This document shows positions 972 to 7,216 of a DNA stretch of 64,000 nt, piece after piece. A program made the position numbers and the translations under genes. How positions within the stretch are numbered: position 1 is the stretch's first letter; each line of letters opens with the position of its first letter. The notes under the pieces are model-generated. The model was not told the origin of the DNA, did no database searches, and saw only the letters and a program-made list of their open reading frames with translations. Source of the stretch: Rhodobium gokarnense (lineage in GTDB: Bacteria; Pseudomonadota; Alphaproteobacteria; Rhizobiales; Rhodobiaceae); NCBI RefSeq assembly GCF_025961475.1, contig NZ_JAOQNS010000001.1:124001-188000 (forward strand). The letters are read 5' to 3'.

Positions 972-4490
<3,519 letters not shown>

Positions 4491-4636: not shown

Positions 4637-5014
4637 CTACCCGGTGTTTTTGGCGGTATCGAGCGGCGTTTCGACGGCGACGCCGTCCGCCTTTGGCGCA
4701 TCGGCGGAAAGCTCCGGCTCGAGCGGGCCGGAATGGGCCTCCAGGTCGCCGCCCGGAGCGACCGCGACGACCAGTTCGCCGTCGAAATCGGTGACGCCTT
4801 TCGACAGCGCGTAGCAGGCGAGGCGCACCGATTTGGGGATGGTGACCTTCTTACCGTCGCGCCTGCCCTTTTCGTAGTACTGGATCATCCGCTTTTTCAG
4901 CCCGAGGGCGTCGGCGGCGTCCTTCTGTTTCCAGCCGAGGGCCCTGCGCCAGGCGCGGAATTTCTCCGGGCTCATCGGGATGTCGTCGTCGCCGGATTTT
5001 TCAGCTTTTTTCAT
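4637..5014 (-). CDS. XRE-type helix-turn-helix regulator, likely autoregulated
   Basis: The 125-residue protein has one HTH domain at about residues 16-71 (S-P-E-K-F-R-A-W-R-R-A-L-G-W-K-Q-K-D-A-A), with recognition helix K-K-R-M-I-Q-Y-Y-E-K-G. The C-terminal 50 residues are acidic, proline-rich and probably disordered. The ATG at residue MKKAEK was chosen. The open frame extends 43 codons further upstream, but that part crosses the operator cluster and has no regulator-like sequence. The gene is divergent from the first 41-codon gene, and the shared region holds three copies of a GCAC-N3-GTGC palindrome. Two later copies share the same layout in front of the second 41-codon gene. Inference: this protein binds those sites and represses both its own gene and the microprotein genes. 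Confidence 0.8.
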   Translation of the reverse strand: MKKAEKSGDDDIPMSPEKFRAWRRALGWKQKDAADALGLKKRMIQYYEKGRRDGKKVTIPKSVRLACYALSKGVTDFDGELVVAVAPGGDLEAHSGPLEPELSADAPKADGVAVETPLDTAKNTG

Positions 5015-5050: not shown

Positions 5051-5112
5051 GCACATTGTGCACCCTGGGCGTTGACAGAGGCGCACCGAGTACGCCAACG
5101 TGCACTCAGTGC
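5051..5112. promoter_or_regulatory. Operator cluster A: three GCAC-N3-GTGC palindromes in the divergent HTH/microprotein promoter region
   Basis: Sites are GCACATTGTGC at 5051-5061, GCACCGAGTAC at 5083-5093 (one mismatch in the right arm) and GCACTCAGTGC at 5102-5112. Centres are 32 and 19 bp apart. The middle site lies just after a perfect TTGACA. The adjacent HTH regulator is the obvious candidate ligand. That assignment is inference. Confidence 0.75.
5072..5100 (+). promoter_or_regulatory. Putative promoter for the first 41-codon gene
   Basis: A consensus -35 box TTGACA is at 5072-5077. A 17-bp spacer would place the -10 at 5095-5100, where the sequence CCAACG is poor. Support comes mainly from geometry. 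The palindromes are centred 16 bp before the first base and 11 bp after the last base of the -35 box, exactly as in the second promoter at 5617-5645. Confidence 0.4.
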
Positions 5113-5211
5113 TAATGAAGTCCGAATGGGCCTGCGGAGTCAATAGAGTCTCCGCAAACGTCGTGGGTTCGCAGCGGGGCGCAGGCTCGAACGAGCCGGG
5201 AGGAACGCGAG

Positions 5212-5337
5212 ATGCTGGCTGATCTCATCATAGGACGGGCGATGGTCGCTCCGCACGGGATCGATGTCCATCGGCATGCGACATTTTCCTGCAGCATGAC
5301 GCGCCTGATCCGCAAGGTGCTGAATTTCGGCGCCTGA
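5212..5337 (+). CDS. 41-residue microprotein, copy 1 (most divergent)
   Basis: The gene has an ATG with a strong Shine-Dalgarno (GGGAGGAA at 5198-5205, about six bases before the start) and ends in TGA after exactly 41 codons. The protein begins MLADLIIGRAMVAPHG and ends in a basic stretch R-L-I-R-K-V-L-N-F-G-A. It has the same length as the two related genes downstream and shares M1, R9, H20, A23, C27 and A41 with both, plus D18-V19 with copy 2. Most other positions are conservative changes. It is divergent from the HTH regulator and lies behind operator cluster A. No known domain was recognised and function is unknown. A chance open frame cannot be excluded from this copy alone. Confidence 0.6.
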   Translation: MLADLIIGRAMVAPHGIDVHRHATFSCSMTRLIRKVLNFGA

Positions 5338-5595
5338 CGGCCGCGTTTCTTGGGTCCGCCGAGGGCACCGCTTGCCGGCCTTTCGCGGCCTGCAACATGC
5401 CGCTTTCCGTCCCATCATACCGCTCGGCAGGCCACCGGCGCGTCGTGCCGCGACCGGTCGGCGGATTCTTCGGCGCCGGCCCGTCCGGGCGACGGCGAGC
5501 GGCCGGGATGTGCGGTTTTCGTCCCCTAATTCCTGGTTGCGGACCGGCGGCCGTGGCCGCTGCAGGAAACATTTACCGTAAATATCGCCATTTGC
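5338..5595. other. Non-coding stretch between microprotein genes 1 and 2
   Basis: No supported gene is visible in this 258-bp GC-rich stretch. Open frames cross it on both strands, but they lack ribosome-binding sites and family-like sequence. There is no clear terminator after copy 1, unlike after copies 2 and 3. The last 35 bp become AT-rich and lead into operator cluster B. Confidence 0.5.
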
Positions 5596-5669
5596 GCACA
5601 GTGTGCATTTTTTGGCTTGAAATAGTGGCACTCTGTGCGTATCTATCATTTCGAAGATGCACCAAGTGC
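5596..5669. promoter_or_regulatory. Operator cluster B: three phased GCAC-N3-GTGC palindromes
   Basis: Perfect copies are at 5596-5606 (GCACAGTGTGC), 5628-5638 (GCACTCTGTGC) and 5659-5669 (GCACCAAGTGC). Centres are 32 and 31 bp apart, close to three DNA turns, so all three face the same side of the helix. The middle copy lies inside the promoter spacer, a classic repressor position. The same element occurs in cluster A beside the HTH gene. Confidence 0.85.
5617..5645 (+). promoter_or_regulatory. Promoter of the second 41-codon gene
   Basis: TTGAAA at 5617-5622 and TATCTA at 5640-5645 are separated by 17 bp. The operator at 5628-5638 fills the spacer, so a bound protein would block RNA polymerase. 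The expected start would be near 5652, giving a leader of about 85 bases. Confidence 0.55.
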
Positions 5670-5736
5670 ACCCAAGACGACAAGCTCCCCTCAAGAGGGA
5701 GTCCCGGCGATGCCGGGTGACACAAGGAGAAGAAAA

Positions 5737-5862
5737 ATGGCCGTCAACATTCTTGTTGCGCGCAGCTATATGGGGCACCGCAAGGTGGACGTTCACACGT
5801 CCGCCCTGGTCTGGTGCAAGCTGAATGCCGCCTTCAAGCGGCTCCGCGGGCTGTTCGCCTGA
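5737..5862 (+). CDS. 41-residue microprotein, copy 2
   Basis: The ATG is preceded by a strong Shine-Dalgarno (AAGGAGAAG at 5724-5732), and the frame closes after 41 codons. The protein starts MAVNILVARSYMGHRKVDVH, has a W26-C27-K28-L29 core and ends in a basic tail (K-R-L-R-G-L-F-A). It shares 26 of 41 residues with copy 3, with no gaps. The frame is open further upstream, but the upstream codons run through the operators, so the internal ATG is the real start. A perfect 12-bp terminator stem follows. No domain was recognised. The N-terminal hydrophobic stretch plus basic C-terminal half suggests a small amphipathic or nucleic-acid or membrane-associated peptide, which is inference only. Confidence 0.8.
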   Translation: MAVNILVARSYMGHRKVDVHTSALVWCKLNAAFKRLRGLFA

Positions 5863-5887
5863 CCCAAGGCGATTTGTGACCCCCTGA

Positions 5888-5926
5888 ACGAAAGGGCGCG
5901 GCCTCGGCTGCGCCCTTTCGTTGTTT
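5888..5926 (+). terminator. Rho-independent terminator after microprotein gene 2
   Basis: ACGAAAGGGCGC (5888-5899) pairs perfectly with GCGCCCTTTCGT (5910-5921) around a 10-base loop and is followed by a short T-rich run. The stem core is repeated in the terminator of copy 3. Confidence 0.85.
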
Positions 5927-6056
5927 GCGGCGGGGCGGGCAACGGGGCATGAACGGAACTGTCACGGTAAGCCCGCGCTAACCGAATATATGCACGAATT
6001 CACAACTTTAGGATTGTAGTTTGCGGGCCTCGACCGGCTGACACGAGGATGAGCAG

Positions 6057-6182
6057 ATGGCTCTCAACATTCTGGTTGCCCGCAGCTATTTCGGACAGCG
6101 CAAGGTCAATCTGCACAACACCGCAGTGGCCTGGTGCAAGCTGACCTCCGCCGTCAAGCGGATCCGTCGGACCTTCGCCTGA
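6057..6182 (+). CDS. 41-residue microprotein, copy 3
   Basis: The gene uses an ATG with a GAGGATGAG ribosome site (6045-6053) and is exactly 41 codons long. The protein starts MALNILVARSYFGQRKVNLH, has the same W-C-K-L core as copy 2 and ends K-R-I-R-R-T-F-A. The changes from copy 2 are mostly conservative (V/L, D/N, L/I), which is the pattern expected for a selected protein. The 194-bp gap in front has only a GCAC half-site (5992-5995) and no full palindrome, so this copy may be under separate control. Its terminator resembles that of copy 2, which suggests duplication of a gene-plus-terminator unit. Confidence 0.8.
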   Translation: MALNILVARSYFGQRKVNLHNTAVAWCKLTSAVKRIRRTFA

Positions 6183-6211: not shown

Positions 6212-6247
6212 AAGGGCGCGGCCCCGGCCGCGCCCTTTCGCTGTTTT
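6212..6247 (+). terminator. Rho-independent terminator after microprotein gene 3
   Basis: AAGGGCGCGGCC (6212-6223) pairs with GGCCGCGCCCTT (6226-6237) and is followed by TCGCTGTTTT. It is a near copy of the terminator at 5888-5926. Confidence 0.85.
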
Positions 6248-6361: not shown

Positions 6362-7216
6362 ATGCGCTGGCGGGGACGACGGCAGAGTTCCAACATCGAT
6401 GACCGGCGCGGCGGGCGCGTGGTGCGCCGGGCAGGTGGCGGCAGCATCCTTTTCGTGCTCATCGCCATCGGTGCCTCGCTCCTCTTCGGCATCGATCCGC
6501 GCCAGGTCCTTGGCATTCTTGAGGGCGGACAGACCGTCTCGCAGCAACGCCAGACGGCGCCGGCGGGCGGGCGCAACGACGAGGGCAGGGCGTTTGTCAG
6601 CGTCGTCCTCGCCGACACGGAAGACGTCTGGAACCGGGTCTTTGCCGCCAACGACCTGAAATATGAGGAGCCGACGCTGGTGCTCTTTTCCGGCCGCGCC
6701 CGCTCGGCCTGCGGGTTCGCCAGCGCCGCGAGCGGGCCGTTCTACTGTCCGGGAGACCGGCAGGTCTATATCGACCTGGCCTTCTATGAGGAGCTGCGCC
6801 GGCGCTTCAAGGCGCCGGGCGATTTCGCGCAGGCCTATGTGATTGCCCACGAGGTCGGCCACCATGTTCAGAACCTCACCGGCGTCCTGCCAGAGTTCAA
6901 CCGGCGCCGCCAGACCCTGTCGGAGCGCGAGGCCAACCAGCTCTCCGTGCGGGTCGAGTTACAGGCGGACTGCTATGCCGGGGTCTGGGCGCATTTCACC
7001 CAGCAAAAGGGGCTGCTGGAGGCCGGCGACATCGAGGAGGCGCTGAACGCGGCGCACCAGATCGGCGACGACGCGATCCAGAAGCGGACGCAGGGCTATG
7101 TGGTGCCCGACGCCTTCAACCACGGCACCTCGGAACAGCGCGCGCGCTGGTTCCGGCGCGGGCTGTCGTCGGGCAAGGTCTCGGACTGCGACACGTTTTC
7201 CGGGCGGCGGGTTTAA
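6362..7216 (+). CDS. YpfJ-family neutral zinc metallopeptidase, membrane-anchored
   Basis: The 284-residue protein belongs to the putative neutral zinc metallopeptidase family (YpfJ, PF04228). The N-terminus M-R-W-R-G-R-R-Q-S-S-N-I-D-D-R-R-G is the family signature. One membrane helix spans about residues 27-44, so the catalytic part probably faces the periplasm. The zinc site is H163-E-V-G-H167-H, with the E-L-Q-A-D-C-Y-A-G motif at 199-207 supplying the likely third ligand. Cysteines near 117 and 129 could form a disulphide. The substrate is unknown for the family. It lies 115 bp after the terminator of the third microprotein gene on the same strand, so it is probably transcribed separately. 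Confidence 0.93.
   Translation: MRWRGRRQSSNIDDRRGGRVVRRAGGGSILFVLIAIGASLLFGIDPRQVLGILEGGQTVSQQRQTAPAGGRNDEGRAFVSVVLADTEDVWNRVFAANDLKYEEPTLVLFSGRARSACGFASAASGPFYCPGDRQVYIDLAFYEELRRRFKAPGDFAQAYVIAHEVGHHVQNLTGVLPEFNRRRQTLSEREANQLSVRVELQADCYAGVWAHFTQQKGLLEAGDIEEALNAAHQIGDDAIQKRTQGYVVPDAFNHGTSEQRARWFRRGLSSGKVSDCDTFSGRRV

Follow-up and report, generated by a model that had tools for sequence, protein, structure and literature searches.

The window, by which we mean the whole stretch of 64,000 nucleotides of Rhodobium gokarnense DNA analysed here, carries three tandem genes that are members of a genuine, unnamed family of proteins of about 41 residues found in one alphaproteobacterial order, Hyphomicrobiales. 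The family is more than chance, because dozens of genomes have it at one and the same chromosomal location and it shows an excess of synonymous changes. With moderate confidence, we read its members as new small cationic, probably two-helix proteins whose genes would be repressed by a divergently encoded HTH protein through the palindrome GCACNNNGTGC, and which would act as effectors by protein contact.

The preliminary description of this DNA had reported three genes on one strand, each encoding 41 residues and each preceded by a ribosome site, and the coordinates and translations agree with it (Table 1); the ribosome-site motifs upstream of copies 1, 2 and 3 are GGAGG, AAGGAG and GAGGA. Read along the plus strand, the order is the HTH gene (itself on the minus strand), copy 1, copy 2, copy 3 and then a YpfJ-like gene. 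Copies 2 and 3 are identical at 26 of 41 positions (63%) without gaps, as described. Among the residues that copy 1 was said to keep, M1, R9, H20, A23 and C27 are common to copies 2 and 3 and also occur in members from a genus-mate and from another taxonomic family, but A41 is not a family residue, because the C-terminus varies in both length and sequence. All three copies fall within one family, which upholds their proposed relatedness, but copy 1 does not emerge as the sister of the other two: in a tree of 29 members, 4 of the 26 inner branches are well supported, there being too few columns, and copies 2 and 3 do not group with the Rhodobium copy 1. The similar terminators proposed for copies 2 and 3 stand only as stem-loops. 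These are alike, and the 12-mer AAGGGCGCGGCC occurs exactly in the window only within them, but the terminator scan as a whole found 2 sites against 2.5 expected from shuffles. Only the window's own genome and that of Rhodobium orientis yielded copies 2 and 3, while the third genome examined from the genus has a single copy. The window and R. orientis agree in their coding parts, while much of the interval between copies 1 and 2 has diverged; the stop codon of the R. orientis copy 3 (locus L123, 2798-2944) has become TGG, so that the frame reads 49 aa.

Table 1. Positions in the window of the three microprotein genes, their flanking signals and the neighbouring genes.
Feature	Position	Strand	Remarks
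carB (carbamoyl-phosphate synthase large chain; presumed)	972..4490	-	Downstream of the HTH gene, same strand; ORF
HTH_3/XRE-type regulator, 125 aa	4637..5014	-	Divergent from copy 1; PF01381 30.6 bits, cut-off 23
Operator array before copy 1	5051..5112	.	GCACATTGTGC 5051-5061; GCACCGAGTAC 5083-5093, one mismatch; GCACTCAGTGC 5102-5112
Microprotein copy 1	5212..5337	+	41 aa; HTH-adjacent position, as used in single-copy relatives
Operator array before copy 2	5596..5669	.	5596-5606, 5628-5638, 5659-5669; 32 and 31 bp apart
Microprotein copy 2	5737..5862	+	41 aa
Terminator-like stem-loop after copy 2	5889..5927	+	Read by eye; absent from the terminator scan list
Microprotein copy 3	6057..6182	+	41 aa; without upstream operator
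Terminator-like stem-loop after copy 3	6212..6247	+	Listed by the terminator scan
YpfJ-like neutral zinc metallopeptidase	6362..7216	+	NF050010 378.8 bits, cut-off 250; PF04228

A real family had been expected to have homologues elsewhere, to recur beside the same HTH gene and to show low dN/dS, and all three expectations were borne out. As a sole query, copy 3 reached only the genus (2 of 61 genomes), and copy 1 gave matches in the third Rhodobium genome and in one other taxonomic family. A family profile built from eight sequences, with matches counted at E<=0.01, gave 63 matches in 58 of 397 genomes of the order, covering 28 of 141 genera. Fifty-four of the 63 matches, in 50 of the 58 genomes, are divergent from the same HTH gene and no more than 1.1 kb away from it. 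At E<=1e-4 the only match located away from the HTH gene is a 42-residue member abutting carA in genome G157; eight other matches away from it, at E 3e-4 or worse, are treated together as chance. In the loci L014-L041 the HTH gene is present in 28 of 28 (L032 was not read by the search pattern used on this set). Members are 35-51 residues long, with 41 the commonest length. A class-wide profile search of 385 genomes, our own included, returned no convincing member outside the order; three short partial matches outside our own genome, at 1e-4 to 1e-3, were not counted as members.

The same distribution can be viewed from the HTH gene. A scan of named genomes with the HTH alignment, of which the best 80 of 152 relatives were retained, placed a clear member in 27 of these 80 loci. 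In the 75 loci scanned by script, 24 have a clear member (E below 1e-9); the other five (L138, L168, L174, L179 and L201) lack the core string of the script, and among them L168, L174 and L179 carry the microprotein and L201, which is contig G161:C174, has a profile match. Clear carriers include Cohaesibacter, Afifella, Tepidamorphus, Lutibaculum, Breoghania, three Pseudovibrio and a Devosiaceae MAG. The loci of Roseibium, Labrenzia, Stappia and Pannonibacter have no member within 1.3 kb on the divergent strand. One doubtful case, L178 (45 aa, E 0.06), is excluded from the carrier counts unless stated. A 45-aa ORF stands at the family's position there (3581-3715) and in L097 (1633-1770), keeping the N-terminal ML..LILARA and lacking the DxH..A...C core; it is possibly a far diverged member.

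Coding capacity is under selection in this family. Orthologue pairs with many changes have an omega of 0.02-0.12, and pairs with only few changes 0.11-0.32. Thus G067 and G102 differ by 19 synonymous and 4 nonsynonymous changes and G188 and G165 by 19.5 and 5.5, while G137, G029 and G106 encode identical proteins despite 3-5 synonymous changes. Few-change pairs are less telling: they give 2 and 2 (G301/G272) and 2 and 1 (G315/G148), and the window compared with R. orientis gives 3 and 1 for copy 1, 1 and 1 for copy 2, and 4 and 3 for copy 3. For copies 2 and 3 themselves, the pair that the preliminary description had singled out for a dN/dS test, omega is 0.44. Copy 1 of the Rhodobium lineage has changed faster, since its omega against G001 is 0.62. 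Chance short ORFs are common, and a conserved regulatory RNA could also be imagined at such a place, but it is hardly credible that these genes do not encode proteins: synonymous changes dominate between orthologues, members from different taxonomic families retain the start, the ribosome site and the stop, and Rfam finds only a tRNA in the whole window.

Library searches agree with the earlier statement that the three genes belong to no recognised family, with no convincing match in Pfam, NCBIfam or PHROGs. Weak matches of single members (Galanin 0.054, Ago_Mid 0.082, three PHROGs at 0.04-0.08 and PRK06113 0.023) were set aside as chance. In the open PMC literature, no description of the 41-residue family, or of an HTH gene between carA and carB, was present among the matches listed. 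DUF1127 (PF06568) comes to mind as a group of short alphaproteobacterial proteins with several per genome, and in Agrobacterium a DUF1127 protein is described as acting by protein-protein contact with PhoR (PMC12501420, as far as its accessible text goes). The three genes had been held to be distinct from it, rightly so, as PF06568 hits the genome at four sites elsewhere but none of the three genes, and 0 of 25 members. Two structure predictions place helices at about residues 2-12 (3-12) and 19-40, with low confidence (pLDDT 66 and 68), and the microprotein is thus probably two-helical by prediction. Comparison of the first predicted structure with the PDB by fold gave no match, and comparison of the family by sequence gave one at E 0.65, which is chance. 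D18, H20 and C27 are conserved, yet for each of them there are members that lack it, which makes a catalytic or metal site unlikely; metal binding by these residues was rejected, as copy 3 has N18, L135 has Q20 and Pseudovibrio has no C27.

The gene at 4637-5014 is an HTH_3/XRE-type regulator, scoring above the PF01381 cut-off, and that at 6362-7216 is a member of KPN_02809/YpfJ by NF050010. The genes that we take to be carA, carB and MerR were named from their own sequences and not by a family search. In the loci L014-L041, ypfJ lies beyond the microprotein in 23 of 28 within the short flanks examined, and it lies divergent beside the HTH gene in 13 of 25 carrier-marked loci (L178 included). 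The commoner link is that of the HTH gene with carB, which lies downstream on the same strand in 72 of the 80 named HTH loci, and the HTH and microprotein genes can co-occur elsewhere, as three loci (L154, L196 and L197) have both with no carA or carB within 4 kb on each side (2.6 kb downstream for L197). We therefore regard it as very unlikely that the microprotein or the HTH protein tunes CarA/CarB from within a carA-carB block. This proposal draws on the frequency of carB just given, on the presence of carA on the other side in 65 of 80 loci (hand count) and on the orphan microprotein of G157 beside carA, but the evidence is one of linkage; the three loci just named speak against it, as do the 11 HTH loci outside the order, none of which has carA or carB within about 1.5 kb.

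The association of the HTH and microprotein genes is close and can be broken from either side. G157, a genome that is 99% complete, has the microprotein, with no HTH match at E<=1e-8 and no exact operator there. The HTH gene was probably lost in G157, because G848, of the same taxonomic family, has the full set of HTH gene, operators, microprotein and ypfJ. Conversely, Roseibium, Labrenzia, Stappia and others retain the HTH gene with no microprotein, and so the HTH protein has other work too. In these Roseibium- and Labrenzia-type loci the HTH gene sits between carA/MerR and carB, and the microprotein-free loci (L161 and other Roseibium and Labrenzia) often have a single GCACNNNGTGC about 150 bases before the HTH core, as if for autoregulation. 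The persistence of the microprotein in G157 without an HTH match or exact operator indicates a role beyond the HTH protein. Together with the Roseibium-type loci, G157 argues against an obligate toxin-antitoxin or antirepressor pair.

The charge and shape of the proteins raise the possibility of a toxin-like module, in which a basic amphipathic C-terminal helix would disturb the membrane and the HTH protein would silence the gene. The eight members examined have a net charge of +2 to +8 and an amphipathic C-terminal stretch, and each promoter usually has several operators, as would suit a gene kept silent. Such a role is nevertheless decidedly unlikely, given that the gene survives without the HTH gene in G157, that the Cohaesibacter members (35-39 residues) lack most of the helix tail, that the family is under purifying selection at one chromosomal place, and that plasmids gave no match when searched with two members as query. 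Likeness to known toxins was also considered and set aside: the 25 members have no convincing match in Pfam or NCBIfam, and copies 1 and 2 have none in PADLOC.

The reading that we favour, of a repressed effector gene, is built on the operators and promoters. The palindrome GCACNNNGTGC is usually present three times, 30-32 bp apart, around a TTGACA/CATATT-like promoter. Exact sites number 67 in the 33 upstream regions of family genes, against 0.16 expected (mononucleotide shuffles), with at least one in 30 of the 33. The window itself has 7 exact sites against 1.56 expected, five of which lie at 5051-5669; once one mismatch is tolerated, the count over the whole window shows no enrichment (53 sites against 46.7 expected). 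Before copy 2, the middle operator falls within the 17-bp spacer between the -35 (TTGAAA, 5617-5622) and the -10 (TATCTA, 5640-5645), and this array holds the only exact operator pairs of such spacing in its own genome. Copy 1 has TTGACA at 5072-5077 with no recognisable -10, and its operator sites are the same in R. orientis. No operator site was found upstream of copy 3. The operator arrays, their lack before copy 3 and the carB/carA/ypfJ surroundings are additions to the preliminary description. A stricter consensus promoter scan found no promoter in the region.

Of the 29 family promoters examined, 21 have a site between the -35 and the -10, and 16 of these have further sites on both sides; among the 8 with no site in the spacer of a recognised promoter are those of both Rhodobium copies 1 and of copy 3. 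An overlap of sites with the core promoter, the arrangement looked for in a gene under an XRE repressor, is thus found in 21 of 29 promoters, that of copy 2 among them and those of copies 1 and 3 not. The spacers are 17-18 bp long and give no hint of a MerR-type activator. Since occupation of the spacer by a protein would be expected to obstruct RNA polymerase, we infer that the palindromes over the promoter form a repressor architecture, through which the HTH protein would bind the operators and repress the microprotein gene. Two or more near-exact sites were counted by hand in 21 of 24 clear carriers versus 3 of 50 microprotein-free loci, most of the latter being close relatives and hence not independent.

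Beyond single loci, exact operator pairs of such spacing are found in 27 of 67 genomes and at the HTH locus in 23; in the window's genome (G000) and in R. orientis (G002) the pair stands before copy 2. Pairs away from the HTH locus occupy six places (in G018, G022, G061, G157, G244 and G253), and beside the one in G018 (L080 1501-1543) no family-like ORF was recognised. G085 has an exact pair by the HTH gene, and the microprotein was not found there. The site-in-spacer pattern occurs at 65 places in 66 genomes versus 21 for a reversed control; manual assignment puts 21 of them at HTH loci and 44 elsewhere, so that a wider regulon could exist beyond the HTH loci. One of the 44, L244 (G196), lies between convergent genes with no small family gene.

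There are possible explanations for so constant a pairing of regulator and microprotein. One hypothesis is that the two proteins are feedback partners, with the microprotein binding the HTH protein as antirepressor or co-repressor in a self-adjusting switch. The tight genomic pairing in 54 of the 63 profile matches, the occurrence of the pair in L154, L196 and L197 away from carA and carB, and the way in which operator number goes with microprotein presence would all fit. The hypothesis is still rather unlikely in our judgment, as the 99% complete G157 keeps the microprotein in the face of its missing HTH match and exact operator. Repression of an independent effector accounts for the layout as follows. 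The divergent HTH protein would bind the GCACNNNGTGC palindromes upstream of the -35, within the spacer and downstream of the -10, and once bound would shut out RNA polymerase, acting as a local repressor of the microprotein gene. When repression is lifted, a short separate mRNA would be made and translated into the microprotein, which would most likely then bind and tune another protein. Of the three Rhodobium copies, copy 2 has the full promoter of this presumably repressed type, copy 1 has operators with a poor -10, and copy 3 has no operator.

For the last step, our guess that the microprotein is a post-translational effector follows the example of HfiA of Caulobacter crescentus. As presented in the available text of PMC3900383 and PMC10688885, HfiA is a protein of 65-68 residues with no known domain that is repressed by XRE regulators and inhibits an enzyme by direct contact, the repressors of its gene being StaR, RtrA and RtrB. 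The likeness, a small protein under XRE-type regulators, is drawn by analogy and not by sequence comparison. Whereas the Caulobacter motif, according to the part of the source available, has one strong and one weak half-site, the operator here is fully palindromic and usually occurs two or three times. When the HTH protein was compared by tblastn with phage records (E<=1e-3), only two Caudoviricetes records were matched (37% identity), and TgrL (gp216) of phiCbK was not among them. An XRE regulator beside a small protein is also described for Scr1/Scr2 (XRE-DUF397; PMC6262351, from the accessible portion), and this adjacency is shared with type II toxin-antitoxin systems. The present genes differ in being divergent, in that the microprotein, of about 41 residues, matches neither DUF397 nor a toxin, and in that it can persist without the HTH protein. 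A type II toxin-antitoxin operon was itself rejected, the HTH and microprotein genes being divergent.

Of 289 genomes sampled across the class, 25, our own among them, gave a match to the same HTH protein. Among 11 HTH loci outside the order, five (L208, L209, L211, L215 and L216) combine a pair of sites with a small divergent ORF that has a ribosome site; in the other six, sites or ORF are missing or doubtful. L208 and L209 (G619 and G516, of one genus) share a near-identical 50-aa ORF, 178 bases upstream of the HTH core, that is preceded by two operators with a spacing of 31 bp. Beside the HTH gene in G543 (L218 1165-1317 and 1501-1656) and G777 (L219) there is a tandem paralogous pair of 52 and 51 aa, with the motifs WRGY, EWA, RR and PFH, which is divergent from the HTH gene and has a site-in-spacer promoter; that of L218, read by eye, is TTGAAA, GCACTTCGTGC, CATACT. 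An 80-aa family lies beside the same HTH gene with GCACNNNGTGC sites in G424, G790, G795 and G798 (L220-L223, match at 1501), and the promoter of L221, also by eye, is TTGTCC, GCACAGAGTGC, CATATA. Synonymous and nonsynonymous codon changes in these outside-order small proteins are 7 and 2, 8 and 4, and 27 and 14. Against Pfam they have no match, the G424 80-aa member included, and comparison of their profiles with that of the 41-residue family gave probabilities of 1.1% and 0.1%; given their shortness, they could be related to it beyond detection.

The pairing of the HTH protein with dissimilar small proteins outside the order also weighs against feedback partnership, for each of them would need to gain HTH binding. 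We tentatively suggest that the HTH repressor and its site-in-spacer promoter may be a reusable regulatory socket for unrelated, lineage-specific small proteins, in which effectors are swapped and the switch stays. Such a socket might conceivably span Alphaproteobacteria, holding the proteins of about 41 aa in Hyphomicrobiales and the 52/51-aa pair and the 80-aa family in other orders.

These genes add a protein family that lies below the usual size limit of annotation, and the family is accompanied by a probable regulator, an operator of defined sequence and a promoter. The near-constant HTH neighbour and the repeated sites over the promoter suggest a tightly switched small regulator. If the same switch does serve unrelated small proteins in other orders, the operator array would be a signpost to unannotated microproteins across Alphaproteobacteria.
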